DNA of 20,303 bases, taken from positions 1 through 20,303 of IMG/VR virus record IMGVR_UViG_3300047512_000010. One strand, written 5' to 3'. Shown one piece after another: positions 3,583 through 17,824 of the stretch (the first letter of the stretch is position 1; each line of letters starts with the position of its first letter). The stretch comes from a virus. A program made the position numbers and the translations under genes. A model generated the notes under the pieces. The model had not been told where the DNA came from and ran no database searches. It saw only the letters and a program-made list of their open reading frames with translations.

Positions 3583-4197
3583 ATGGCAGCTGGCGATACC
3601 GCTTTATCAATTTGTTCTGATGCTTGCGTAATGCTAGGCGCAAAGCCCATCTCCTCTTTTGACGAAGGAACCGATGAGGCATCTATTGCAGATCGTTTAT
3701 ATAACGACATCCGCAATCAAGCCCTTATGCTTTACCCTTGGTCATTTAGTTTTAAAAAGACCTCAATTGCTCAATTAATTACAACTCCTACTAACGAATA
3801 CCGTTATGAGTATCAGTTGCCTGGAGACCGCTTAGGATCGCCTAGAGCCGTATACGATACAAATGCTGTGGGCATCCCACCGCGCAAAGAATACAGAATC
3901 ATGGGCAGCAAGTTATTGACTGACTACGAACAAGTTTATATTGATTATCAATATGCTGTACCCGAATACGATATGCCTAGTTATTTTGTGCAGCTGCTCA
4001 AATACATGATGACTTGGCATCTTGCTTTGCCCATTACAGATCAGACCGAGAAAAGCCAGTATTGGCAGTCTGTAGCTATTGGGTCACCAGCTGAGAATGG
4101 TAGGGGTGGATATTTAAGACAGGCCATGAATATTGACGGCCAAGGCCAACCAACCAATGCCATTAATGACTTCTCACTTATTGCTGTGAGGTATTAA
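3583..4197 (+). CDS. Tail tubular protein A (T7 gp11-like)
   Basis: A 204-residue protein, close to the 196 of T7 gp11. It carries the family's pattern: an N-terminal 'AxSICSDACVMLGAKPI' helix, a middle 'RNQALMLYPWSFSFKK' segment, 'YEYQLPGDRL', and a late 'YFVQLLKYMMTWHLALPIT' helix followed by the Tyr/Gln region ending in the genome-typical YLRQAMNIDGQGQP. Protein A forms the ring that binds below the portal and carries the nozzle (protein B) and fibres. The ATG at 3583 has GGAG upstream. The stop shares its last A with the start of the next gene (TAATG), so A and B are translationally coupled. Confidence 0.9.
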   Translation: MAAGDTALSICSDACVMLGAKPISSFDEGTDEASIADRLYNDIRNQALMLYPWSFSFKKTSIAQLITTPTNEYRYEYQLPGDRLGSPRAVYDTNAVGIPPRKEYRIMGSKLLTDYEQVYIDYQYAVPEYDMPSYFVQLLKYMMTWHLALPITDQTEKSQYWQSVAIGSPAENGRGGYLRQAMNIDGQGQPTNAINDFSLIAVRY

Positions 4198-6191
4198 TGG
4201 CTCGCTTTGTCTCCATTCAGACAAACTTTTCTACTGGAGAATTAGACCCATTGCTCCGCGCAAGGGTTGATTTGACTGCCTATCAGAATGCATTAGAAGA
4301 GGCTACCAATGTGGTCTGTCAGCCACAAGGCGGTATTCGCCGCAGACCCGGCACAAAGTACATTGCTACATTACCAAACACAAGCACAGAGTCTGCTGGT
4401 AACGGCACACGTTTGGTTGAGTTTGAGTTCAGCACATCAGATTCCTATATGCTTTGCTTTACGCATAATCGGATGTATGTATTCAAAAACAAGGCTCTTG
4501 TTACAAACATTAATGGCTCTGGCAACCCATATCTTGACACGTCAGGAGTTGGCTTAACTGGCGCACGTTTAAGCAATGTTGTTTGGACTCAATCGGCTGA
4601 TACGTTGATTGTGGTTCACCCAGACATTAACCCAGTAAAAATTGTAAGGGGAGGTACTGATGCTACCTGGACTGCTTCTGCTATTACCTTTGATTCTATT
4701 CCGAAGTATGCTTTCACCGCTTCTTTTTCTAATCCAGCCGGTACACTCACACCGTCCGCAGTCTCAGGCAAGATTACATTAACCGCATCGTCTAGCGTGT
4801 TTACTGCTGGTAGTGTTGGCCAATACGTCAATGCTAGTCCACAAGGCAGAGCTAAGATTGTCCGATACAACTCTGGTACGTCAGTTGATGCAATTACTGA
4901 GTTCCCATTTTTTAACACATCAGCTATTGCTAATGGCTCATGGGAATACGAGTCTGGCTATGAGGATGTTTGGTCTGCTGGTAAAGGTTGGCCACGCTCG
5001 GTAACATTCCATGAAGGCCGTCTATATTTTGGTGGATCGAAATCGCGCCCATCAACCATATGGGGATCTAAGGTTGGATTGTTCTTTGACTTTGACCCAA
5101 CAGAAGGTTTGGATGATGATGCGGTAGAGGCAACTCTAGACACCAATACATTTAACGCTATTGTTGACATTATCTCTGGCCGCGACTTGCAAGTATTTAC
5201 TACAGGAGGTGAGTTCTATGTTCCTCAAAACGGTCTTGATCCAATTACTCCAACGAATTTCTTTGTTAAAACAGCGAGCCGTAATGGCATTAAAGAAGGC
5301 ATTCGGGTTCAACAATTAGAGTCTGGTACATTGTTTGTACAAAGACAAGGGAAGTCATTAAATGAGTTTGCTTATACGGATACGCAACTTACATACGTCA
5401 CGCAGAAGATATCGTTACTTGCTGGCCATCTCTTGCGTACTCCAACTCGTCTTGCTTTGCGTAGGTCTGTGGCTACTGACGAAAACGACTTATTGCTAAT
5501 TACCAACAGCGATGACGGCACAATGGCCGTATTCTCGTTATTACGCGCTCAGAATGTTATTGCTCCATCAGAGTTTTTAACCGTTGATGGATCGTTTGTT
5601 GATGTTGGTGTAGATATCTCAACCATCTATGCAGTTGTCAAGCGCAATGTAAACGGCACATTCCAGTATTTTGTTGAGGCTTTTGACAATGATTTGTTAA
5701 CAGACTGTTCCAAGACTGGTGGAGCTGCGGCATCGGTCTCAATGAGCCATGTAGCCACAGAAACAGTTAATGTTATTTTGGATGGTTCTGTGCAAGCAGA
5801 CCAAGCAGTACCAGCTGGAGGCACAGTTACATTTCCGCGCTCATCAACCACAAGCTATGAGGTTGGCTTGCCAATTACAATACGAGCCGTAACCATGCCA
5901 GTTGATCTAAAGTTACAGACAGGCACACGTATTGGATTTAAGAAGAGAATCGTTGAGGTTAACGCATTGGTTGCCGACACCCAGCATCTAAAGATTAATA
6001 CTATCCAAGTGCCATTTAGAGCGTTTGGCGATATATTGGATGAGCCAATTGCTGAGTTTACCGGCACAAAGACATTGCATGGCATATTGGGTTATACGAC
6101 AGAGGGCAAGATTACTGTAGAGCAAGACGTGCCATTAAAGATGACCTTGCTCGGTTTAGAGTACAAAGTAGCAACACATCAAGGAACTTAA
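4197..6191 (+). CDS. Tail tubular protein B / nozzle (T7 gp12-like, stabilisation-protein type)
   Basis: A 664-residue protein (T7 gp12 is 794). The N-terminus, with 'NFSTGELDPLLRARVDLTAY', 'EEATNVVCQPQGGIRRRPGT' and then 'VEFEFSTSDSYMLCFT', is the hallmark of the tail-nozzle or stabilisation proteins of environmental, BPP-1- and epsilon15-type podoviruses. It is followed by a long beta-propeller-like region with repeated aromatic strands, including 'FHEGRLYFGGS' and 'PSTIWGSKVGLFFDFD' around residues 270-295, and a further strand-rich C-terminal part. It extends the tube below protein A and plugs it before infection. It is coupled to the A gene at its start, and a 1-base gap separates it from the next gene, with AAGGA in front of that start. 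Confidence 0.88.
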   Translation: MARFVSIQTNFSTGELDPLLRARVDLTAYQNALEEATNVVCQPQGGIRRRPGTKYIATLPNTSTESAGNGTRLVEFEFSTSDSYMLCFTHNRMYVFKNKALVTNINGSGNPYLDTSGVGLTGARLSNVVWTQSADTLIVVHPDINPVKIVRGGTDATWTASAITFDSIPKYAFTASFSNPAGTLTPSAVSGKITLTASSSVFTAGSVGQYVNASPQGRAKIVRYNSGTSVDAITEFPFFNTSAIANGSWEYESGYEDVWSAGKGWPRSVTFHEGRLYFGGSKSRPSTIWGSKVGLFFDFDPTEGLDDDAVEATLDTNTFNAIVDIISGRDLQVFTTGGEFYVPQNGLDPITPTNFFVKTASRNGIKEGIRVQQLESGTLFVQRQGKSLNEFAYTDTQLTYVTQKISLLAGHLLRTPTRLALRRSVATDENDLLLITNSDDGTMAVFSLLRAQNVIAPSEFLTVDGSFVDVGVDISTIYAVVKRNVNGTFQYFVEAFDNDLLTDCSKTGGAAASVSMSHVATETVNVILDGSVQADQAVPAGGTVTFPRSSTTSYEVGLPITIRAVTMPVDLKLQTGTRIGFKKRIVEVNALVADTQHLKINTIQVPFRAFGDILDEPIAEFTGTKTLHGILGYTTEGKITVEQDVPLKMTLLGLEYKVATHQGT

Positions 6192-6192
6192 T

Positions 6193-6792
6193 ATGATATT
6201 TTCTAGACAAGACCTTAAAAACTTTGATGGCCCAATTGGTGATCCGTTTAATGGCCCAGCAGTAAATAAACATCTTGGTCAAAAGTATCAAGACCCAGTA
6301 ACCGCAACTATTGCTCTTACATTGACAGCGGTTAGTGCAGCTGGCTCTATTAAGGCCGGGCAAGACCGCAACAAGATGTATCAGATGCAAGCCAAGCAAG
6401 CAGAGGTTGAGTCTGACCGCAGAGCTGTGCAATATGAGTTACAGGCTAACGAAATTCTTAGACGTACCAATCAAGCCAACGCAGCCGTAGTGGCTCGTGG
6501 CTTTGCTGGTGGCACACAGGGCTTTGAGGGATCTGCTGGATTAATACAGTCCATCAACAATACTCGCGGTGGCAAAGAATTTATATTTGCTTTACAAAAT
6601 GCTGACATGACAAAGCGTAGTGGTCTTATCCAATCAAGTTTATATCAAGGCGCTGGACAAATTGCTGAACAAGCTGGCTACTTTGATGCTGCTGGTAAAT
6701 TAGGTCAAGCCGCATTTATGTATTCAAAAATTGGTAGCGCTCCTAGCACAGATGGCGGGTTTCGTACAACTGGTGAAGATTGGGGTAGTTAA
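6193..6792 (+). CDS. Small internal virion (ejection) protein, T7 gp14-like
   Basis: A 199-residue protein, nearly the length of T7 gp14 (196). It has one hydrophobic, Ala/Thr-rich segment near residues 35-55 (DPVTATIALTLTAVSAAGS), then a long charged helix rich in Gln, Glu and Arg with 'YELQANEILRRTNQANA', then a Gly-rich part ('GFAGGTQGFEGSAG') and a further helix. This layout of a membrane-inserting segment followed by a coiled helix is usual for the smallest ejection protein, which leaves the head first and makes the pore in the outer membrane. Position between tube B and the next ejection gene supports it. Stop and next start overlap by one base (TAATG). Confidence 0.75.
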   Translation: MIFSRQDLKNFDGPIGDPFNGPAVNKHLGQKYQDPVTATIALTLTAVSAAGSIKAGQDRNKMYQMQAKQAEVESDRRAVQYELQANEILRRTNQANAAVVARGFAGGTQGFEGSAGLIQSINNTRGGKEFIFALQNADMTKRSGLIQSSLYQGAGQIAEQAGYFDAAGKLGQAAFMYSKIGSAPSTDGGFRTTGEDWGS

Positions 6793-8420
6793 TGGCTGAA
6801 CTTCCACGTTACCAACCAACTGGCTATTTGCCAGCAGACGTTCCACGTTTAGACTTTGCTAATCTTAAAGAGTCTGTAGCAATGACTCAGGGAATTAGCG
6901 CTGCTCTAGATCGTTTGTCTAATTTTGCTTTTAAAGAAGCAGAAGAAAAAGCAAGACGTGAGGGTATGCAATGGGCGCCAGAAAATGCACCAACCCCAGA
7001 ACAAGTGTTGGCGGCAAAAGATGACCCAAATGCTTTACAAAAGTTGTTTGCAAAGCCTGGCACAGCATTTGGCGATGCGGCCAGAAAGATTCAGGCCATT
7101 CAATTAAGAACCGAACTTGAATCAATTGGAAGGCAAAAACTAGCAGAGTTAAGTATTAAGTCAGAAAAAGAAGGATACACTCTTGACCAAATTCAGCAAG
7201 AAACAAAATCCTTAACCAATGGATACGCTAGAGCAATTAGCGCTGTAGATGCTGAAGAAGGCTCTAGGTTTAGAGCATCCATATCCATGGTTGGAAGCTC
7301 CCTTATTGCTACCGCTGCAAAAAAATTTGAAAATACTTTGATTGAACAAAGGGCAGCGCTTGTAACAGAGCATTTGGCATCAACACCAGTAACCCTTGCA
7401 AACCATATTAAAACAGTATCCGATCCAGTAGAATTGCAAGCGCTTATAAATGCCGAATTTGAAAAGATACTTTCAGCTGCTGGATCTGTAAACATTCCAG
7501 GATTTGTAAAAGAAAAAGCACAAGACTTTGAAAAATTTAAACTTAATGCAATTATTGAATATGCAATTAGTAAAGATTTTGCGCCAACAGAGATAGACGG
7601 ATACAGAAGATTAATTACTGGAGATTATGGAAAATTATCTGAGGTAATGAAAAAAGTAAACCTTGACAAATTAAAGACTCAATGGCTTGAAAAAACAGGC
7701 AATATTATTGAATCAAATAATAAAGCAAACGCATTAAGTCTTTCAATAAATCAAGATAAAGTAAATCAAATTTTAGAAAATCATGCTGCTGGAAAAATAG
7801 GCGGTCAAGATGCATATCGTCAAATAAAAGCATTAAACGTAACTCTTCCTGATGGCCAAATGAGAGCTTTGCTTTCTGGCGAAGGCGCCGGGGCTACACC
7901 AAAAGAATTTGGTAATTATGAATCAATGACTCAGCGTGGACTGCTTGGAGAAAATGAAATAAACAATCTTGCTGAAAAAGGAAAGATGAGTTGGACACAA
8001 GCAAACAAACTTAAACAGCAAGCTCGAAACCCAGATACACAAATGAGAGATGCATTAAGTTATGGAAGAGCAGCTGTTGGAGCGCCAGGAGAAATGACGT
8101 TTGGCTTTGGATATGAAAAAGGAAGATATGAAAGACTCCAGGGGCAGTTGCGTGTACAAAAATATGAGGCATTGCAAGCTGGTAAACCATTTGATCCAAT
8201 GCAAGTAATGATAGAACTTGTTAAAAAAGATAATGCAACAGCAGAGCATCAGCAATATGAAAATGATTTAAATGATTTTAAAACTAGGCTTATAAGAAAC
8301 GGAATTAAGTTTGACAATAATAGAATTTATACAGAAAAAGACTTAAAAGATGTTGGCAAAAGAGAAAGAGATATATTGCTTGATATGCAGTCTAAATTAA
8401 AAAGGGATAAGGATCAGTAA
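6792..8420 (+). CDS. Internal virion (ejection) protein, T7 gp15-like
   Basis: A 542-residue protein, almost all predicted helix, with strong Lys/Glu/Gln content and no membrane segment or enzymatic motif. The N-terminus has 'YQPTGYLPADVPRLDFANLKES', the usual opening of the second ejection protein in related phages (short Pro/Arg stretch, then amphipathic helices 'ISAALDRLSNFAFKEAEEKAR'). T7 gp15 is 747 residues, so this is a shorter relative. The role is inferred as part of the periplasmic conduit built with the proteins before and after it. Base composition becomes visibly more A-rich from about 6900 to 8420 than in the tube genes. It overlaps the next gene by one base (TAATG). Confidence 0.72.
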   Translation: MAELPRYQPTGYLPADVPRLDFANLKESVAMTQGISAALDRLSNFAFKEAEEKARREGMQWAPENAPTPEQVLAAKDDPNALQKLFAKPGTAFGDAARKIQAIQLRTELESIGRQKLAELSIKSEKEGYTLDQIQQETKSLTNGYARAISAVDAEEGSRFRASISMVGSSLIATAAKKFENTLIEQRAALVTEHLASTPVTLANHIKTVSDPVELQALINAEFEKILSAAGSVNIPGFVKEKAQDFEKFKLNAIIEYAISKDFAPTEIDGYRRLITGDYGKLSEVMKKVNLDKLKTQWLEKTGNIIESNNKANALSLSINQDKVNQILENHAAGKIGGQDAYRQIKALNVTLPDGQMRALLSGEGAGATPKEFGNYESMTQRGLLGENEINNLAEKGKMSWTQANKLKQQARNPDTQMRDALSYGRAAVGAPGEMTFGFGYEKGRYERLQGQLRVQKYEALQAGKPFDPMQVMIELVKKDNATAEHQQYENDLNDFKTRLIRNGIKFDNNRIYTEKDLKDVGKRERDILLDMQSKLKRDKDQ

Positions 8421-10507
8421 TGATTGAGGATCGTTTTGCAGATTTAATTAGACACAGCTATCGGTTGCCAAATGAAGATGGTCAGTCTCAAGATACTTTA
8501 TTGGGATCAAATCAATCTCGTGACCCAGTTGGTACAGTTACTGTTACTGGATACCAAGAGCCACAAGTAATGACTGACGTTATGCCAGAAGGCGCTGGCA
8601 TGGTTGCAAAACCATCAGATGTACGAGTTGGCCGCGGTGGCTTAACTCTTGAACAGTCTGCACAGGCTGGTAACTTGGATCGTCCATTGATGGCTTTGGC
8701 AGATATGTTGGCTGGAGCTGGGCGAGGAGCTGTATCACAGACGATTGGTATTGGCGGGGATGTAGAGAGCATTTTTACTGGATTAAAAAATGTTTTCACC
8801 AATCCAAATAACAAATCAATGGTAGATGCATTTTTAGAAGGAATGTCTCAGCCAACCACATTGCCAACAACTCAGCAAATTAGTACAGAAGGTTTTACGC
8901 TGCCTGGTACAAATCTTAATGTGCCACCATTGGCTCCTGTTGTGCCACCTAGTGCGCCAGCACAAGCAGAGCGCCAAGCAAGCGCAGAGTATGGCCAAAC
9001 TGGTGGAGAGTTCTTGCCATTTCCAGGGGCAGTTGATGCAGCCAAGTTGGCTGTAAAAGCAATCAAGGCAACTAAGGGTATGCCGGTTGGTTTAAGCATT
9101 AAAGACGTTAGCGGTACAAAAGAAATAGCATTTGCTACGGCTAAACCAATAGCCCTTACAAATATTGACCAGCAAAGTTTGCCAGCAATACAAAAAATTG
9201 TTTCTGATGGTATTGCATCTAGTATGTCAGGATCAAAAATTATTCAAATGGTTGAAACTCAGACTAAAACAAAATTAACTGGAAAACAAAAAAAAGAATT
9301 AAAAGATTATGTTTTTGAAAATGTTCCAAAAGGGCAAATATATTCTGACCAAGCATTTAAAGATTTAATTGCTCAACCATTACCATTTGAACCATCAACA
9401 CAACAATTTACTAAAGCATTTGATGCTGCAATAAATTGGCTTAAAACGCTTAATCCAGAAGAAATTAAAAATGCTGCCATTTTAGCGGATCAGCGTTTAA
9501 AACCAATATTAGGGGTTGATGCTGAAGGAAATGTTAATCATTTACTTGCAACTAATGGCAAATTATTAAAAACAGAAAAAGGTATTGAGGGTGGTACACC
9601 AATTGAGTTGCCAGACGGCCGCAATATAGAAAGCGCTGGTTTATCAATATCACCAGCTTTTAAGGTTGGCAAATTTAGTACTTGCCCAAATTCTGCAAGT
9701 TGCGCTCAAGAATGTCTTGGTAAGACTTCTGGAGGATATTTTACCTATGGCGGTGGCCGAGATTTGGATGCTATGAAAGGCGCTCGTTTACGCAGTTTTA
9801 GAATGACACAGGCTATGTTTAGAGAGCCAGAGGCTTTTGCAATTAAGCTCAATGAAGAAATCTTCTCATTAAAGAAAGCAGCAGAAAAGAACGGCAATGC
9901 TTTTGCAGTTCGCCTTAATATGCTTTCAGATATTGATCCTAAAGTACATAAGTCGATTATTGAAGCAAACCCAGACGTACTCTTCTATGACTACACAAAG
10001 ATGAAATACCGCCCAGTTGCGCCTAATCATCATTACACATATAGCTCAACAGGATTGTCGCAGAAGGCTGGTCAGAATGGCTTAACTGTAGATGTTGATA
10101 ATCCACACTCCAATTGGACACAGATGCGCCAATGGCTTGACGATGGCCAAAATGTAGCAATGGCATTTAGCCGCAAATATAGCCTACCAGAATCTGTGCT
10201 TGATGAAGCCACAGGCAAAACCTATCGAGTTATTGATGGCGATGCCTATGACTTTAGACCAATGGATGCACAGCCACCAGGCTCAGATGGGGTAATTGTC
10301 GGTCTAAAAAATAAAGCTATGACCCGCAAAGAGTCTATGGCGGCACAGGATTCCAATGGATTCTTTGTACAGTACGATCCTAAGCTCGGCACACAAGTGA
10401 CTATCCCGCGCCAAAAGAAAGAGGTTATTATGCTCAAAACGGAAGGTCAAGAAACACCATCCGTTATGGAAACTGGTGAGCAGATTACAGAGAGGGCAAA
10501 GAAATGA
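8420..10507 (+). CDS. Large virion protein with GP88-like C-terminal domain
   Basis: A 695-residue protein in the place of T7 gp16. Residues ~85-120 (RPLMALADMLAGAGRGAVSQ, then GIGGDVESI) match a segment common near the N-terminus of large internal proteins of podoviruses. Residues ~140-200 are a Pro/Thr/Ala linker. From about residue 410 on the sequence resembles the GP88 family (mycobacteriophage gp88-type, function unknown): a Cys cluster C422-x5-C428-x3-C432 in TCPNSASCAQEC, the strand VRLNMLSDID at 497-506, FYDYTK at 522-527, and NVAMAFSRK at 578-586. I see no lytic transglycosylase motif. The three cysteines could bind a metal or an Fe-S cluster; that is inference. The gene overlaps the 59-aa gene by 4 bases (ATGA). 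The GP88 half is less A-rich than the middle part, so a fusion is likely. Virion location is inferred from context. Confidence 0.65.
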   Translation: MIEDRFADLIRHSYRLPNEDGQSQDTLLGSNQSRDPVGTVTVTGYQEPQVMTDVMPEGAGMVAKPSDVRVGRGGLTLEQSAQAGNLDRPLMALADMLAGAGRGAVSQTIGIGGDVESIFTGLKNVFTNPNNKSMVDAFLEGMSQPTTLPTTQQISTEGFTLPGTNLNVPPLAPVVPPSAPAQAERQASAEYGQTGGEFLPFPGAVDAAKLAVKAIKATKGMPVGLSIKDVSGTKEIAFATAKPIALTNIDQQSLPAIQKIVSDGIASSMSGSKIIQMVETQTKTKLTGKQKKELKDYVFENVPKGQIYSDQAFKDLIAQPLPFEPSTQQFTKAFDAAINWLKTLNPEEIKNAAILADQRLKPILGVDAEGNVNHLLATNGKLLKTEKGIEGGTPIELPDGRNIESAGLSISPAFKVGKFSTCPNSASCAQECLGKTSGGYFTYGGGRDLDAMKGARLRSFRMTQAMFREPEAFAIKLNEEIFSLKKAAEKNGNAFAVRLNMLSDIDPKVHKSIIEANPDVLFYDYTKMKYRPVAPNHHYTYSSTGLSQKAGQNGLTVDVDNPHSNWTQMRQWLDDGQNVAMAFSRKYSLPESVLDEATGKTYRVIDGDAYDFRPMDAQPPGSDGVIVGLKNKAMTRKESMAAQDSNGFFVQYDPKLGTQVTIPRQKKEVIMLKTEGQETPSVMETGEQITERAKK

Positions 10508-10683
10508 TTAGCAATGTTCAACTAAAAGAAGAAGACTTTCTACAGCAATTCCCACGAGCAACTGAATTTATGCAAGATGGATTACCATTTGTTAATTGGT
10601 GGGAAGCCGGTGAGGATAGAACCTCGCAAGGCAAACCTATCAATGTAGCCGATTTGGCAGCAATGAATAAGGGAATTGGATAA
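10504..10683 (+). CDS. Small uncharacterised protein (59 aa) between the two large ejection proteins
   Basis: A 59-residue frame, ATG 10504 to TAA 10681-10683. It begins MISNVQLKEEDFLQQF, has a Trp-Trp pair (FVNWWEAGED) near residue 32, and ends LAAMNKGIG. GAGAGGG lies just upstream of the start. The start overlaps the preceding stop by four bases (ATGA), and its stop shares one base with the next ATG (TAATG), the same coupling used by its neighbours, so it is very likely translated. Without it there would be an unexplained 175-base gap in an otherwise seamless block. I do not recognise the family. A small accessory or chaperone for one of the flanking large virion proteins is only a guess. 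Confidence 0.75.
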   Translation: MISNVQLKEEDFLQQFPRATEFMQDGLPFVNWWEAGEDRTSQGKPINVADLAAMNKGIG

Positions 10684-13610
10684 TGTCTATAAAGCCATTA
10701 AACGAGCGGTTAGATGAGCTAGACTCCGCTGAAAAAGATGTTGCTGAATTGCCAATAAAAATATCGGCAACTGAGGATACTTTTCCAAGCGCTGAAGAAC
10801 AGCCTCAGTTTGAACCAGTACAAGTTGCTGGATTGGGTGACTTAAAAAAGCTAGGTAATATTTTTAAGCAAAGCAAAAAATCTGAAAGACCTTTAATTAA
10901 ACCAGGCAAAGAACAGGAAACTGTTGGGCCATATCAGGTTATACCAGAGGCAACAACAAAAAAAGCAGAAGAGATTTTGCAAGAAGCTCCAACAATGCCA
11001 GTTACTGGCAAGCCATCCCCTACATCAGCAGAGGTTGCTGCTGGTGTACCAGAGACCGCATTTAATCTAGACTTGATTAAAGACGATGATGGTGTCAAAC
11101 AGTTTATAGAGGCTACGGCTAGATCCTATGGCGCAGACAAAATAGAAAAAGTTAGTTATAAAGAAATAGCAACCAAAGTTGCCGCCGAAGGATATGATGA
11201 GGCTTTCTTGGCTAGGATTCTCAATCCGTTGGAAGCCACTAAGGCCAATCCTAGCGATGCTTACAAAATGCTATTGGCATTGACAGATGCTGGTAAAAGA
11301 GCGTATGAGCTTGGGGTTAAGGTAACAAAGGCAACAGGAGATGGAACATTAAATGCTGATTTGGCAAGCGAGTTTCAGCAAGCTGTTGCATTAGAGGGGG
11401 CTTTGCTTAAAGCAGCAAGAGGCCGTCAGGCAGACATTGCAAGAACCCTTGGTATATTTTCTGAAGCAAGACAGTCGACCGCAGAAAGAGGCAAAGTTCT
11501 TGAAGCAATTATGAACGAGTCTGGCGGGATTAAATCAGTACATGATTTTGCAACAAAATATATTGCACTTGATTCAAGAGCGGCAAGGGCTGAAATGGCA
11601 TCATCTGGTTATGCAAGCGATTTCAAAGGTGTGGCCGGTAGAGTTACAGATATTGTTCTGACTACATGGATTAATAGCATATTGTCTAGTCCAATTACAC
11701 ACGCTAAAAATATTGCTGGTAATACATTTTTTGGGGCATATCAAATACCAGAAAGATTGGTTGCCTCTGGCATTGGTAAGGTTAGAAATGTTCTTTTCCC
11801 AGGCGGTGAAACAGGAATTAAATTAAACGAAATACAGGCACACGCAATTAGCTTTGTTACGTCTCCAAGAGAGGCTTTTGAAATTGGTCTAAGAGCTTAT
11901 AAAAACAATACACCAACTGATCCGTTTACAAAGATTGAGTCTACTAGATACAACAGAGATCCATTTTCTATTGATGCAGAAACTGATTTTGGAAAATCAA
12001 TGGCAAAGGCTTTGCAGTTATATGGTTCATTTGTAACCATACCAGGCAGAGCCTTGATGGCAGAGGACGAAATTTTTAAAGCATGGGGATTTAGAAACCA
12101 TATAAATCTTTTGTCTATCCGAGAGGGTAACAAAATGTTTGAAGAACTCATTAAAAAAGGTATTGATTCAGATTCTGCTGCCAAGCAAGCAGAGGCTTTA
12201 ACGCTTAGTTTGCAAGCCAACCCAACAGAAGAACTTATGCGAGCAGCAACAGCAGAAGCAAGAACGCTAACTTTCACCAAAGAGTTAGAGGGATTTCTTG
12301 GGGATGCTGCAAAAATGACACAAAGTCCTTTAATAAAAATGTTTGTGCCATTTATTAGAACCCCAACAAACATTATGTTGGAAACAATTAGTAGAACACC
12401 AGTTGGTGTTTTAACTCCAAAGTTTATTAGCGACATTAAAGCCGGTGGAATACAAAGTGATATAGCAATGGCAAAGATTGGGCTTGGTTCACTCGTTATG
12501 TACTCTGTTGCAGCTGGCCCATTAGAAGGCAAACTAACAGGATACGGCCCAATGAGGAAGGGCGATAAACAAGTCCTAGAAGGTACTGGCTGGCAACAGT
12601 TTAGCTATGTATTAAGAAGAGACCAAGTCAGCGATGAGCGACTCAAAGAGTGGGAAAAGCTAACAAAGGTAAGCGTTGGGAAAGATAAGGTATATATAAG
12701 TTATGCTGGCCTAGAGCCGTTGGCATCATTATTGGCTATTGCTGCAAGCGCTGGTGAATACTCAATGCAAGAGGCATCAGAAGCAGATTTAACAAAAATA
12801 TTTACTGGTGGTGTTCTTGGTTTATACAATTACATGAGCGAACAGCCAATGCTAAAAGGCATTAGTGAAATGATGAGCGTTCTTAAATCATCTGCGCAAG
12901 ATGAAGAACCTTTCTTATATAACTTGTTTGCTCAAATGTCTAAACAAATGACAAGCGTTCTAATTGGTGGAAGCCCATTGGGTATACACAGTTCATTTGT
13001 CGCTAATATAGAGCGGTTTATAAATCCAGAACAATCTTTAGTTATGGAGGCAAGGTCACCATTAGATGACAATCCATTTAATGGAATTAAAAAAGGAGCA
13101 ATGGAGGCTATTGGTCAAGCCATGTCGAGAAATCCATTAACTTCAGATATGCTACCTCCTAAGATAGATCCATTAACTGGAGTTACAAAAAAAACTGGCG
13201 AGGGTAATTGGAACGAAACATTCAATCCATTTAAAACATCAGAGGGCAAAGACAGTCCAGCCCATATGATTTATGCCCAGTTCCGTCTGCCAATGTATAT
13301 CCCAGAAAAGAAAATAAATGGGGTTGAGTTAAATGATGAGCAATATACAAGGCTTATTGAGCTGGCAACCAAAGGCAATAAGATTGAAAAGGGCTTATTA
13401 ATGCTTGCCAATGATCCAAACTTTATAGCTTTTGCTAAGACTACAAATGATCCAAATAAAGGCTTTGCTAAAGCACAGGCAATAGTACAAAGGGTTGCTG
13501 AGTCTGCTTATGCGGAGGCTAGAAAGATATTAATTATGGAAGATTCCAGTTTGCGTATGGATATCGGTGACGTTAAAAAACTAGAGCAATTTGAAGGCAA
13601 GTTTAGGTAA
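10683..13610 (+). CDS. Large internal virion / DNA ejection protein
   Basis: A 975-residue protein and the largest gene here. Residues 1-130 are acidic, Pro/Gln-rich and probably disordered. They are followed by helical segments and, at about residues 325-365, the stretch TWINSILSSPITHAKNIAGN, with a hydrophobic 'TFFGAYQIPERLVASGIG' after it. This is typical of the large ejection proteins of pelagiphage-like and other environmental podoviruses. Further hydrophobic or amphipathic helices are near 600-625 (IGLGSLVMYSVAAGPL) and 675-690 (LEPLASLLAIAASAGEY), consistent with membrane contact. It has no recognisable peptidoglycan hydrolase. With the 695-aa protein it probably replaces T7 gp16 (1318 residues), carrying the leading DNA end through the inner membrane. 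It ends 40 bases before the fibre gene, with AGGGAA in between. Confidence 0.72.
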   Translation: MSIKPLNERLDELDSAEKDVAELPIKISATEDTFPSAEEQPQFEPVQVAGLGDLKKLGNIFKQSKKSERPLIKPGKEQETVGPYQVIPEATTKKAEEILQEAPTMPVTGKPSPTSAEVAAGVPETAFNLDLIKDDDGVKQFIEATARSYGADKIEKVSYKEIATKVAAEGYDEAFLARILNPLEATKANPSDAYKMLLALTDAGKRAYELGVKVTKATGDGTLNADLASEFQQAVALEGALLKAARGRQADIARTLGIFSEARQSTAERGKVLEAIMNESGGIKSVHDFATKYIALDSRAARAEMASSGYASDFKGVAGRVTDIVLTTWINSILSSPITHAKNIAGNTFFGAYQIPERLVASGIGKVRNVLFPGGETGIKLNEIQAHAISFVTSPREAFEIGLRAYKNNTPTDPFTKIESTRYNRDPFSIDAETDFGKSMAKALQLYGSFVTIPGRALMAEDEIFKAWGFRNHINLLSIREGNKMFEELIKKGIDSDSAAKQAEALTLSLQANPTEELMRAATAEARTLTFTKELEGFLGDAAKMTQSPLIKMFVPFIRTPTNIMLETISRTPVGVLTPKFISDIKAGGIQSDIAMAKIGLGSLVMYSVAAGPLEGKLTGYGPMRKGDKQVLEGTGWQQFSYVLRRDQVSDERLKEWEKLTKVSVGKDKVYISYAGLEPLASLLAIAASAGEYSMQEASEADLTKIFTGGVLGLYNYMSEQPMLKGISEMMSVLKSSAQDEEPFLYNLFAQMSKQMTSVLIGGSPLGIHSSFVANIERFINPEQSLVMEARSPLDDNPFNGIKKGAMEAIGQAMSRNPLTSDMLPPKIDPLTGVTKKTGEGNWNETFNPFKTSEGKDSPAHMIYAQFRLPMYIPEKKINGVELNDEQYTRLIELATKGNKIEKGLLMLANDPNFIAFAKTTNDPNKGFAKAQAIVQRVAESAYAEARKILIMEDSSLRMDIGDVKKLEQFEGKFR

Positions 13611-13650: not shown

Positions 13651-15309
13651 ATGGCTGATTATGCGATATCTAACGTAGCACGAAGAGTGGTCTATGCCAA
13701 TACTGGTGTAGGGCCATACTCGTTTACGTTTGAAATTCTTGCTAATACCGATATCGCTGTATATCGCGGCAGTACATTATTGACTCTGACCACAGATTAC
13801 AGCGTAACCATTAATGCTAACGGCACAGGGTCAGTTACCCTGGTAACCGCTGGCACAGGCAATATTACGATTGTTGGCGCAAGAGCAATTCAACGCACTA
13901 GCGACTATACGACAGGCGGTGATTTGTTCGCCAGCACCCTTAATACTGATCTAGACTCTCAGACCATCTACGCACAACAAGTGGCTGAGACCGCAGAGCG
14001 TGGACTCAAGGCTCCAGTAGTAGACCCGACTGACATCAACATGACCTTGCCAGCAAAGGCATCTCGTGTTGGTACAGTCCTAGCATTTAATGCAACAACC
14101 GGTAACCCAGAGGCTGGCCCAAGCATTGGCGCTGTAACCACAGTTGCAGCTCAGTCAGCCAACATTAATACTGTAGCGACAAATATTGCAAGTGTTAACA
14201 CAGTTGCTGGCAATGTCGCTAACGTCAATACAGTTGCTGGTATATCTGGTAACGTAACGACAGTTGCGGGGATTAGTGCTAACGTCACATCGGTGGCTGG
14301 CAACTCATCCAATATTAATACTGTTGCTGGTAACAACGCAAACATTACGACAGTTGCTGGCATCTCAGGCAATGTGACTACGGTTGCCGGGATATCGGCT
14401 AACGTAACGACAGTCGCTGGAATCAATGCAGCTGTATCTACTGTGGCCACTAACAATGCTAACGTATCAACAGTAGCCACAAACATTGCATCAGTTAACA
14501 CAAACGCTACAAACATTGTTGCAATTCAGAATGCATCAACTAACGCAACCAATGCGGCCAACTCCGCTACCGCAGCCAGTAACGCACAGACAGCAGCCGA
14601 GGCAGCTCGTGATGCAACGCTAAGCGCATACGATAACTTTGATGACAGATATCTTGGCAGCAAGACTAGTGATCCAACACTAGATAATGATGGCAACGCT
14701 CTAGTCGCTGGCTCTCTGTACTTCAACTCAGTATCGGGAGCAATGAAGGTATACACAGGATCTGCTTGGGTAGCAGCCTATGTATCCGGCACAGACTATC
14801 TTGCTAAAGCAAACAACTTATCTGATTTGACTTCAACATCAACAGCCAGAACAAACCTTGGGCTGGGAACAATTGCTACACAGGCAGCAAGCAATGTATC
14901 AATAACTGGCGGATCAATTACAGGCATTACCGATCTAGCGGTAGCCGATGGCGGTACTGGCTCATCAACCGCTAGTGGTGCAAGAACAAACCTATTAGCA
15001 GTTGGCTACACAGCCACTACAGGCTCTGCGATTATTCCGTCTGGCACAACTGCTGAGAGAGATGGCTCACCAGCCAATGGTTACTTTAGATATAACACTT
15101 CTGTTAACTCATTTGAGGGTTATGTCAATGGAGCCTGGGGTGGTGTCGGCGGCGCACAAGCTGGTGGAGTTATCTTTGAGAACTCATTAACGATTAGCTC
15201 AAACTATACGCTGACATCTAACAAGAATGGATTAAGTGTTGGGCCAATCACCATTGGAAGTGGTGTAACTGTAACCGTTCCAAGCGGTGCTAGATGGGTG
15301 ATATTGTAA
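13651..15309 (+). CDS. Tail fibre protein (T7 gp17-type N-terminus)
   Basis: A 552-residue protein (T7 gp17: 553). Residues 1-~150 form the virion-binding domain of the T7 fibre family: 'VYANTGVGPYSFTFEIL', 'DYSVTINANGTGSVTL', 'RAIQRTSDYTTGGDLFAS', 'TLNTDLDSQTIYAQQVAE'. Residues 170-289 are twelve 10-residue repeats, and 290-325 an Ala/Asn coiled-coil stretch. The segment 'ALVAGSLYFNSVSGAMKVY' follows, then two fibre modules ('LSDLTSTSTARTNLGLGTIA' and 'VADGGTGSSTASGARTNL'), and a C-terminal strand unit ending VTVPSGARWVIL. These are standard parts of phage fibres; no enzymatic or chaperone domain is seen. It attaches to the A/B tube junction. The very short C-terminal tip suggests the receptor-binding work is done or completed by the adhesins downstream. 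Confidence 0.9.
   Translation: MADYAISNVARRVVYANTGVGPYSFTFEILANTDIAVYRGSTLLTLTTDYSVTINANGTGSVTLVTAGTGNITIVGARAIQRTSDYTTGGDLFASTLNTDLDSQTIYAQQVAETAERGLKAPVVDPTDINMTLPAKASRVGTVLAFNATTGNPEAGPSIGAVTTVAAQSANINTVATNIASVNTVAGNVANVNTVAGISGNVTTVAGISANVTSVAGNSSNINTVAGNNANITTVAGISGNVTTVAGISANVTTVAGINAAVSTVATNNANVSTVATNIASVNTNATNIVAIQNASTNATNAANSATAASNAQTAAEAARDATLSAYDNFDDRYLGSKTSDPTLDNDGNALVAGSLYFNSVSGAMKVYTGSAWVAAYVSGTDYLAKANNLSDLTSTSTARTNLGLGTIATQAASNVSITGGSITGITDLAVADGGTGSSTASGARTNLLAVGYTATTGSAIIPSGTTAERDGSPANGYFRYNTSVNSFEGYVNGAWGGVGGAQAGGVIFENSLTISSNYTLTSNKNGLSVGPITIGSGVTVTVPSGARWVIL
14158..14517 (+). repeat. Twelve tandem 30-bp units coding a 10-residue fibre-stalk repeat
   Basis: Residues 170-289 of the fibre read as 12 units of ten residues with consensus A-N-(V/I)-(T/N)-T-V-A-(G/T)-(I/N)-(S/N/I). 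Examples are ANVNTVAGIS, GNVTTVAGIS and ANVTTVAGIN. At DNA level the 30-bp units are diverged by synonymous changes. The hydrophobic positions (V/I at 3, V at 6) recur strictly, as expected for a trimeric beta-structured or coiled stalk. Length changes by slippage or recombination would lengthen or shorten the fibre. Confidence 0.88.
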
Positions 15310-15310
15310 G

Positions 15311-15352
15311 ATGAAAACCACTAAAATATACAAATACTTAGGAGTTCAATAA
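15311..15352 (+). other. 13-codon micro-ORF before the first adhesin gene
   Basis: ATG 15311 to TAA 15350-15352 encodes MKTTKIYKYLGVQ, and its stop shares a base with the ATG of the next gene (TAATG), the coupling used throughout this region. Only a weak ribosome site precedes it. A similar micro-ORF (13620-13658, MKKSTRLGKYYG) precedes the fibre gene. Either could be a coupling leader, a remnant of a removed fibre module, or chance. Confidence 0.2.
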
Positions 15353-15936
15353 TGGCATCCATAGTCGTAACAGGCGATACAAGCGGTTCAATTACCTTAT
15401 CTGCGCCAGCAGTAGCGGGAACAAACACGCTTACATTACCCGCCAATACAGGAACAGTCATCACAACTGCATCAAGCGGTCAGTCTATTCCTAAAGCCGC
15501 ATTACCTACTGGTTCTGTGTTGCAAGTGGTTAGTGCTACTTATTCAACAGCCACAAGTAGGTCATCAAATGTTTATGCTGATACAGGATTGTCTGCTTCA
15601 ATTACACCAACAAGTTCGACAAGCAAAATATTGGTTATGGTTAGCCATAATGGTTGCCGTAAAGATACAAATAATACAAACTTGCAAGTAATTTTATTAA
15701 GAGGTTCAACTCAAATTAGTGGAATTGATGGTGCTGGCGGTTTTACAAACTCAACAGCAACTAATGATTTTGGTGGAATTTCAATATCATATTTAGATTC
15801 ACCAGCAACAACATCTTCCACAACATATAAAACTCAATTTAGAAGTGAAGCAAATAATGCAACGGTTTATGTAAATAATAGTAATGGAAGTGGTTCAACT
15901 AATTCAACAATGACTTTAATGGAGATTGCGGCATGA
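15352..15936 (+). CDS. Fibre-tip / adhesin protein 1
   Basis: A 194-residue protein. Residues 1-60 are a Thr/Ser/Ala-rich strand region (GTNTLTLPANTGTVITT) of the kind used to graft small fibres onto phage tails. Residues ~62-194 form a beta-rich tip with the recurring fibre-domain pattern 'DTGLSASITPTSSTSKILVMVS', then 'LQVILLRGSTQI' and a closing 'TMTLMEIAA'. Such domains are usually receptor-binding, lectin-like sandwiches, but no sugar specificity can be read. AGGAG lies 8-12 bases before the ATG. The distal part is noticeably more A/T-rich than the first 180 bases, suggesting exchange of the tip. It is coupled by ATGA overlap to the 93-aa gene, its likely partner. Confidence 0.75.
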   Translation: MASIVVTGDTSGSITLSAPAVAGTNTLTLPANTGTVITTASSGQSIPKAALPTGSVLQVVSATYSTATSRSSNVYADTGLSASITPTSSTSKILVMVSHNGCRKDTNNTNLQVILLRGSTQISGIDGAGGFTNSTATNDFGGISISYLDSPATTSSTTYKTQFRSEANNATVYVNNSNGSGSTNSTMTLMEIAA

Positions 15937-16214
15937 ACCACGAAGCCATATATAAATTAAATCCATCTGTTGTAATGATTCGTGGCGAAACCGCTTACGA
16001 TGCAGACGGCAACGAAGTCGCATACGATAAAGCCGCAGTTCAGGCTTATGTAGATGCTCATGCTTATATTGCTAAACGAGCCGCAGAATACCCACCGATT
16101 ACCGATTTTGCTGATGCTTATTATTGGGCGCAAAAAGGTAAGACAGAATTGATGGATGCGTATGTAGCGAAGTGTGATGCTATTAAGCAAAAATATCCGA
16201 AGGGAGTAGCATAA
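15933..16214 (+). CDS. Small helper, possible tail-fibre assembly protein 1
   Basis: A 93-residue protein overlapping the adhesin stop by ATGA, with GGAG 8 bases upstream. The N-terminal half (YKLNPSVVMIRGETAYDADG) forms strands around a 'DADGNEVAYD' turn. The second half is helical with EYPPITDFADAYYWAQKGK, a variant of the 'yP-p-xdqLDa-y' motif found in XkdW-like and other tail-fibre-associated proteins. No membrane segment is present. I infer an assembly chaperone or small structural partner of the preceding adhesin. Its stop shares one base with the next adhesin gene. Confidence 0.62.
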   Translation: MNHEAIYKLNPSVVMIRGETAYDADGNEVAYDKAAVQAYVDAHAYIAKRAAEYPPITDFADAYYWAQKGKTELMDAYVAKCDAIKQKYPKGVA

Positions 16215-16867
16215 TGTCCTCAGTTATAAATGCAACGACATCTTCAGGAATCGCTGTATCGGGCGATAACTCAGGTCAGCTTGAAATCCAAACTAATAGT
16301 GGCACTACTGCAATTACTGTTACTACAGGACAAGGTGTTAAGGTCAAGAATACGATTGGTGTAGGCGATGCCACCCCATCAACAAGCGGTGCTGGTATTA
16401 CATTCCCAGCTACTCAATCAGCAAGCACAGACGCTAATACATTAGATGATTATGAGGAAGGGACTTTTACTCCTACTTTGGGGACAAGTGGTGGAACAAC
16501 TGGTAGCCCAACATACACTAGTCAAAACGGTAGATACATAAAAATCGGCAGACTTGTAACTGTTCAAATTTACATGTCATTTAGCAAAAATACTTTAAGT
16601 GGTGGTTATATTGCTTACATAAATGGATTACCTTTTACAAGTGCCGCATCTGCAAGTTTTTCATTAACGACTAATTGGTCTGGTTGGTATAACCCATCAG
16701 GAACATCATTTATAAATGTTCAAGCTATTGTGCCAAACAATAATACTAGATTTGATATGTATCGAATGACTGCGGCTGGTGTTGATTCCGCACCATTACC
16801 AATAGCGGTTTCAGAAATGGGAACTTCAATTACTTGGTATTTAAATGCATCTTACTATACGGATTAA
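16214..16867 (+). CDS. Fibre-tip / adhesin protein 2
   Basis: A 217-residue protein. The N-terminal ~60 residues are Thr/Ser/Gly-rich strands (GQLEIQTNSGTTAITVTT) used as an attachment module in many short phage fibres. From about residue 75 comes the well-known tip domain 'NTLDDYEEGTFTPTL', 'YTSQNGRYIKIGRLVTVQIY', ending in strands to ITWYLNASYYTD. The tip folds as a beta-sandwich and probably binds the receptor. AGGGAG precedes the ATG. As in adhesin 1, the DNA for the tip (from about 16470) is more A/T-rich than that for the N-terminal module. Its partner gene follows after 2 bases. Confidence 0.78.
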   Translation: MSSVINATTSSGIAVSGDNSGQLEIQTNSGTTAITVTTGQGVKVKNTIGVGDATPSTSGAGITFPATQSASTDANTLDDYEEGTFTPTLGTSGGTTGSPTYTSQNGRYIKIGRLVTVQIYMSFSKNTLSGGYIAYINGLPFTSAASASFSLTTNWSGWYNPSGTSFINVQAIVPNNNTRFDMYRMTAAGVDSAPLPIAVSEMGTSITWYLNASYYTD

Positions 16868-16869
16868 TT

Positions 16870-17130
16870 ATGGCACTCACAGAATCTACAAAAATTGACC
16901 AAATTGAAGTCGTAAACGACTGGAACATCCAAGTCCGTCAAGCAACCATTATTGAACGAAATGGTGAATTTGTATCAAGAACATTCCATCGTTGGGTATT
17001 AACTCCTGATTCCGACATTAGCGACCAAGAACAAAAGGTTAAAGATATTTGCACTGCGGCATGGACACCTAAAGTTCGCCAAGCATACGAAACATTTAAG
17101 GCTGAACAAGCCAACAGATTAGGAGCGTAA
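16870..17130 (+). CDS. Small helper, possible tail-fibre-associated protein 2
   Basis: An 86-residue protein with an alpha/beta layout: MALTESTKIDQIEVV, then 'NIQVRQATIIERNGEFVSR' strands, 'TFHRWVLTPDSDISDQ', and a C-terminal helix with WTPKVRQAYETFKAE. It resembles the small 'IEVV...VRxxTxIxxxGxxxSRxxHR...PxxD' proteins that sit beside fibre genes in other phages; their function is unknown. The ATG at 16870 is preferred over an in-frame ATG at 16834, which would lie inside the adhesin 2 tip and has no ribosome site. It is followed after one base by the endonuclease gene. Confidence 0.68.
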   Translation: MALTESTKIDQIEVVNDWNIQVRQATIIERNGEFVSRTFHRWVLTPDSDISDQEQKVKDICTAAWTPKVRQAYETFKAEQANRLGA

Positions 17131-17131
17131 T

Positions 17132-17824
17132 ATGGCATTTGTGCCTAGCCCTGAAGCCGTTAGCTGTGTTTATTGGGTTCACAGACCCGAACATACTGAC
17201 ATCTTGCGTCAAGGCTATGTAGGCATTTCTAAGCGGTTTGAACGCAGAATTTGGGAGCATCTTAAATTAACCCAAAACAGATACTTAAAAAACGCAATCA
17301 ACAAGTATGGTTGGGATAACTTAATTAAAGAAAAGGTGTTAATTGGCAAAGAAGATTACTGTTTAGAAATTGAAGCAAAGCTACGACCAACAGATAAGAT
17401 TGGCTGGAACTTGGTCAAAGGCGGTAACAAGCCACCAGTAAATAATGGTTTTTTTAAAAAAGGTCATATACCTTGGTTAAAGGGTAAAAATCAGCCCGAA
17501 GAAACCAAAGCTAAAGTTAGTGCTGGTGTAAAAAAGCTATGGCAAAACCCTGAATATCGTCAGTATATGTCAGATGTTCACAAAGGCAGAATATCTCCTA
17601 TGGCTGGCAAAAAGCATACACCTGAATCTATTGAGCGTATGCGCCTGTCAAAAATTGGCAAACCATCAAAGAAAAAAGGCAAACCAATGTCAGAAGAAGC
17701 ACGATTAAAATTAACACAAACAATGCAATCTCAGCTATGGACTTGCCCGCATTGCAATACAAGCGGACATAGTAAAGGCGCTGGAAACAGATGGCACTTT
17801 GATAATTGTAAAGGAGCAAGATAA
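17132..17824 (+). CDS. GIY-YIG homing-type endonuclease with NUMOD3 repeats and zinc finger
   Basis: A 230-residue protein. Residues 13-98 fit a GIY-YIG nuclease: VYWVH (GIY position), GYVGIS at 28-33 (YIG), R38/R39, and E79/E81 in CLEIEAKLRP, closing with GWNLVKGG. Residues ~105-195 hold NUMOD3-like DNA-binding units (GHIPWLKGKNQPEETKAKVS; GKKHTPESIERMRLSKIGKP; GKPMSEEARLKL), all very Lys-rich. The C-terminus is a Cys/His finger, C205-x2-C208...H222-x3-C226. The enzyme should nick or cut DNA at an intron-less cognate site and promote its own spread; no intron borders are visible. Unlike most free-standing homing genes it has no promoter gap: one base before its ATG and a one-base TAATG overlap behind tie it into the adhesin operon. 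All key residues appear intact. Confidence 0.85.
   Translation: MAFVPSPEAVSCVYWVHRPEHTDILRQGYVGISKRFERRIWEHLKLTQNRYLKNAINKYGWDNLIKEKVLIGKEDYCLEIEAKLRPTDKIGWNLVKGGNKPPVNNGFFKKGHIPWLKGKNQPEETKAKVSAGVKKLWQNPEYRQYMSDVHKGRISPMAGKKHTPESIERMRLSKIGKPSKKKGKPMSEEARLKLTQTMQSQLWTCPHCNTSGHSKGAGNRWHFDNCKGAR

Follow-up and report, generated by a model that had tools for sequence, protein, structure and literature searches.

In the window, meaning the whole 20,303-nt stretch of viral DNA that was analysed, a 695-aa gene (8420..10507, + strand) lies within the ejection genes of a T7-type phage cassette and joins a carrier module, which probably resides inside the virus particle, to a conserved, enzyme-like GP88 domain. 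The reading considered likely is that the gene encodes a virion-delivered effector occupying an exchangeable cargo slot of the cassette. GP88 is present in many phages, and finding it as exchangeable cargo alongside ADP-ribosyltransferases suggests that it acts within minutes of the start of infection.

The fusion protein and its GP88 domain

The fusion consists of an N-terminal carrier (residues 1–215; 8420..9064), a linker placed by sequence comparison and inference (residues about 216–377; 9065..9550), the GP88 domain (residues about 378–640; 9551..10339), and a C-terminal tail identified by comparison with relatives (residues about 641–695; 10340..10507), all on the + strand. Residues 378–633 matched the Pfam family GP88 (PF17338; hmmscan, E = 6e-18) over positions 6–219 of the 230-position profile at 66 bits, compared to a curated cut-off of 24.4 bits, and residues 401–639 matched PHROG phrog_1617 at 113 bits, while PF17338 matched none of the 14 control genomes. 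The GP88 observation made in the first-pass annotation is thereby confirmed, and the profile search that it had proposed recovered the family across most of its length with the Cys triad and YDYTK kept, the latter two being features found invariant here and not drawn from a published definition. The annotation had placed the domain at 9620–10507, but its start is earlier, close to residue 378 (about 9551), and it stops near residue 640 (about 10339), such that the last ~55 residues constitute the tail. There were no matches to GP88 in PADLOC or NCBIfam, nor in a sequence search of the PDB.

All of the motifs reported in the first pass were found in the fusion (VRLNMLSDID at residue 497, FYDYTK at 522, AFSRK at 582, and C422-x5-C428-x3-C432, 9683..9715, + strand), though AFSRK does not hold as a family pattern, as the compared relatives have AFSSK. 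The predicted conservation of the Cys cluster was borne out, with C422, C428, and C432 invariant in GP88 alignments of 13 and of 63 sequences and the triad kept in 28/28 complete distinct fused homologues, located through an adjoining small ORF; one fused homologue without the full triad is cut off by a contig end and falls outside the 28. Based on alignment columns converted to protein numbering, K381, K384, R498, N500, D504, S542, Y523-D524-Y525-T526-K527, D608, D611, and K632 are also invariant. The fusion shares its profile, Cys triad, and YDYTK with the GP88 family (PF17338/phrog_1617), but differs from the stand-alone members in being joined to a carrier in an ejection block, in several insertions, in a linked 59-aa ORF, and in the spacing of the triad (C-x5-C-x3-C compared to C-x6-C-x3-C in most stand-alone members). 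The fusion is not unique, since GP88-named proteins in the BFVD already include fusions of 995–1211 aa with the domain.

A variable cargo slot in a T7-type ejection cassette

The window also encodes a portal, a T7-type scaffold, a major capsid protein, tail tube proteins, and tail fibres (profile matches), with a GIY-YIG homing endonuclease carrying a NUMOD3 motif among the tail-fibre genes (17132–17824, + strand). The cassette is anchored upstream by the tail nozzle, or tubular protein B (4197..6191; phrog_376), followed by a gp14-type internal virion protein (6193..6792; phrog_418), a gp15-position protein assigned by position and by a relative in Methylophilales phage MEP301 (6792..8420), the fusion, and a gp16-type internal virion protein (10683..13610; phrog_6651 and relatives named ‘internal virion protein’), all on the + strand. 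The arrangement of gp14- and gp16-type genes 3' of the tail tube genes (phrog_418, phrog_6651, phrog_376) is that of a T7-type cassette, and the gene sits inside the ejection block, as the first-pass annotation had proposed, with the gp15- and gp16-type genes on either side. T7 uses three ejection proteins (gp14/gp15/gp16; PMC8954989), and the window has the same gene block in the same order, but with an additional slot separating gp15 from gp16, in which enzyme-like C-termini can be swapped. The description of the N-terminus as ejection-protein-like was not supported by sequence, as the carrier did not match any of the known ejection proteins; it is counted as virion-type on the grounds of gene order and of its presence in slot proteins bearing different cargo. 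A possible relationship of the gp16-type protein to LPD38 (P = 0.048 across 35 columns) was dismissed.

The nearest isolate by gp15- and gp16-position proteins is MEP301 (gp16-type, 34% over 96%), a phage of an OM43 methylotroph, whose complete genome has no GP88 and whose slot position holds only a 161-aa gene. This gene (gp25) had no significant BLASTP match to the carrier and is a positional counterpart only. In MEP301, the gp16-type protein is annotated as overlapping gp23 and gp24 (14031–17130, − strand), compared to a single 975-aa ORF in the window, possibly reflecting a frameshift or sequencing error.

Using the gp16-type protein to search viral contigs, it was possible to survey 40 loci, and the order gp14-gp15-slot-gp16 held wherever an upstream gene could be seen. 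Slot proteins ranged from 176 to 986 aa and GP88 occurred in only seven. Other cargo included the ADP-ribosyltransferase ART-PolyVal (L188, L196, and L206), DUF7178 (for example L181, L183, L186, L189, L197, L203, and L204, the last assigned by a match to phrog_3842 and 81% identity to L181), and part of a giant phage protein, matching phrog_7348 (L175, L178, and L193), while two loci had bare carriers of 176–178 aa (L179 and L190). The N-terminal ~215–250 residues of the window protein matched most slot proteins, with every cargo type represented (BLASTP), though the distant carriers of L193, L194, L197, L200, and L202 had no direct match. Replacement of the C-terminus was apparent between close relatives, both between the window and L175 (nozzle, 95% identity; gp14, 91%; gp15, 81%; gp16, 97%; carrier, 51%; C-terminus, no similarity) and between L202 and L193 (nozzle, 97%; gp14, 77%; gp15, 93%; gp16, 91%; carrier, 78%; C-terminus, no similarity). 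The position is a variable cargo slot, in which the carrier and flanks are kept and the C-terminus is replaced, and as close relatives have unrelated cargo or none, no particular cargo is required for assembly. Two further loci (L004 and L005) resembled the window in the nozzle (95–98%), carrier (82–83%), and GP88 (91–92%), with lower identities for gp15 (44–45%) and gp16 (51–52%), and from these sequences the ejection proteins appear to have been exchanged around the slot.

Directly after the fusion is a 59-aa ORF (10504..10683, + strand) that overlaps both the stop codon of the fusion (ATGA) and the start codon of gp16 (TAATG) and is shorter than the length limit of the first ORF listing. 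A search with this ORF alone recovered 35 loci, all with a GP88 fusion directly upstream (35/35) and nearly all, where enough contig was left, with a gp16-sized ORF downstream. In the slot survey, the companion was found in 7/7 GP88 slots and 0/22 slots with other cargo. Amino-acid changes in the companion are far rarer than synonymous changes (pN, 0.05–0.29; pS, 0.38–0.83), showing that it is coding, though it had no significant Pfam or PHROG match. No conserved companion was identified for stand-alone GP88, where the downstream genes vary among lineages, and the 59-aa ORF is therefore particular to this cassette lineage.

Among the cassette parts tested, GP88 is the most constrained. Between the window and L009, GP88 is 88% identical (dN, 0.085), compared to 26–34% for the carrier, gp14, gp15, and gp16 (dN, 0.74–0.90), with the nozzle at a dN of 0.19. 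Synonymous change in GP88 has reached saturation (pS, 0.82), which rejects recent transfer as the source of the high identity and indicates that GP88 is old in the lineage and strongly maintained. A more distant locus, L028, also has the order nozzle-gp14-gp15-slot-gp16, with a GP88 that is 45–49% identical.

GP88 in other phages and its predicted fold

Most relatives of GP88 are stand-alone proteins of 225–270 aa, consistent with part of what the first-pass annotation had said of the family, though the plasmid proteins it also mentioned were not recovered, as none of the relatives matched were from plasmids. In HMO-2011 (gp01) and the Pelagibacter T7-like phages, GP88 is a left-end or early gene located before RNA polymerase or replication genes, while in mycobacteriophage Peaches it is near the right genome end. 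A scan of 84,980 species genomes with a smaller GP88 alignment identified at least nine loci, a lower bound because a single pattern was used. Larger proteins with the domain include a 2822-aa phage protein with GP88, ART-PolyVal, and LPD38 domains (L029, 2161–10629), Tunturi_5 gp272 (InPase and GP88), which adjoins a protein with NUDIX, ART-PolyVal, and GNAT domains, and a 1319-aa version (L033) that looks to be within a head gene region. A GP88-named protein from a Nitrosopumilus spindle-shaped virus (BFVD A0A514K2X2) was a weak structural match (E = 0.1), with the predicted models hinting that the family may extend to archaeal viruses.

Polyvalent proteins are multidomain proteins predicted to be injected with DNA and include antirestriction modules (Iyer et al. 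2017, PMC5512222). GP88 is not named in its main text, but ART-PolyVal, an alternative cargo of the slot, belongs to the polyvalent domains, and proteins of this kind also contain GP88 (L029 and Tunturi_5). Polyvalent proteins carry at least two disparate functional domains; the window protein has one carrier and one cargo domain, and its relative L029, with three domains, fits this description. The T4 Alt and MuF-fused effectors (PMC5512222) have an enzyme domain that is packaged in the head and coinjected with DNA, and the window protein is proposed to work likewise, though it belongs to a different family and differs in its head module and type of phage.

AlphaFold2 models of the window GP88 domain (pLDDT, 85.4; pTM, 0.85) and of a stand-alone relative (pLDDT, 91.3; pTM, 0.88) both consist of alternating strands and helices. 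The structure prediction suggested in the first pass thus returned a model, and there was no significant match to this fold in the PDB, where the weak matches include many TIM barrels. Assignment to the radical SAM enzymes was not supported, as the motif is C-x5-C-x3-C with CX3CX2C absent and there is no significant PDB fold match. We know of no enzyme activity for any GP88 protein. Set in a predicted alternating beta/alpha fold, the K, R, N, D, Cys, and YDYTK residues that never vary look catalytic.

The fusion had no hmmscan match above the cut-off to Gp37/Gp68 (PF07505, DUF5131), a family with the SD, TK, and N-x-L-x-x-S motifs in an order common to GP88. In a profile-profile comparison (hhalign P = 0.014–0.024, with 2 and 1 of 300 column shuffles equal in score) these motifs aligned in register, and the Gp37/Gp68 C-x6-C-x2-C resembles the GP88 C-x6-C-x3-C, though the triad falls outside of the aligned region. 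The sequence comparison is suggestive of a remote link between the families, and that the GP88 active site is itself remotely related to that of Gp37/Gp68 is tentatively offered as a possibility. No solved structure was detected for DUF5131.

Possible role at the start of infection

As a virion-delivered effector, the protein would enter the particle through its N-terminal ~215 residues with the gp14/15/16-type proteins, as gene order and the shared carriers suggest. The enzyme-like GP88 domain, possibly metal-bound, would be ejected with the DNA, crossing the tail unfolded and refolding in the host to act in the cytoplasm at the very onset of infection, where it would most likely modify a macromolecule or small molecule of the host through a predicted metal- or Fe-S-dependent active site. 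The companion, based on its linkage, would most likely hold GP88 in a folded, inactive, or loadable state while still in the producing cell. That an enzyme may be delivered along with the DNA, as raised in the first pass, is strengthened by the ADP-ribosyltransferase cargo swaps and by GP88 inside of polyvalent proteins. Whether expressed early, as in some phages, or delivered by the particle, GP88 would be present as infection begins, a timing more in keeping with an enzyme of host takeover or counter-defence. A more specific version is rather doubtful, in which a two-gene virion cargo consists of an ejected GP88 enzyme with a non-canonical cluster-binding triad and a 59-aa partner keeping it inactive while particles assemble, with the lineage trading GP88, ADP-ribosyltransferase, and DUF7178 on the carrier.

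The slot protein could instead be mainly a fourth structural ejection protein, with GP88 having a mechanical or DNA-binding role in the ejection channel. Functional domains are known to move among ejection proteins (PMC8954989) and the gene is inside the ejection block, between gp15- and gp16-type genes, but close relatives have unrelated domains or no cargo (176–178 aa in L179 and L190; 161 aa in MEP301) and other phages have GP88 as a separate, early gene, making this explanation unlikely. A DNA-protection or anti-restriction domain acting on the incoming phage DNA or in its vicinity, as opposed to a host-directed enzyme, would suit the timing of the ejected and early-expressed forms alike and has precedent in the antirestriction modules of polyvalent proteins (PMC5512222); the catalytic appearance of the invariant residues and the lack of a PADLOC match leave it quite improbable. 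Though the mosaic C-terminus and its sharp boundary might indicate a recently acquired passenger without a maintained function, this is contradicted by the low dN at saturated synonymous divergence, by the Cys triad in 28/28 complete fused homologues, and by the identical synteny of L028 at 45–49% GP88 identity, and is regarded as highly implausible.

For the preferred reading of a virion-delivered effector, the slot provides a natural comparison set of phages that differ in cargo but have near-identical flanks, the carrier could serve as a packaging tag in short-tailed phages, and the product of the linked 59-aa gene is a candidate for the binding or inhibition of GP88. The other slot cargoes would be ejected too, and DUF7178, which recurs in the slot that also carries GP88, is a candidate injected domain.
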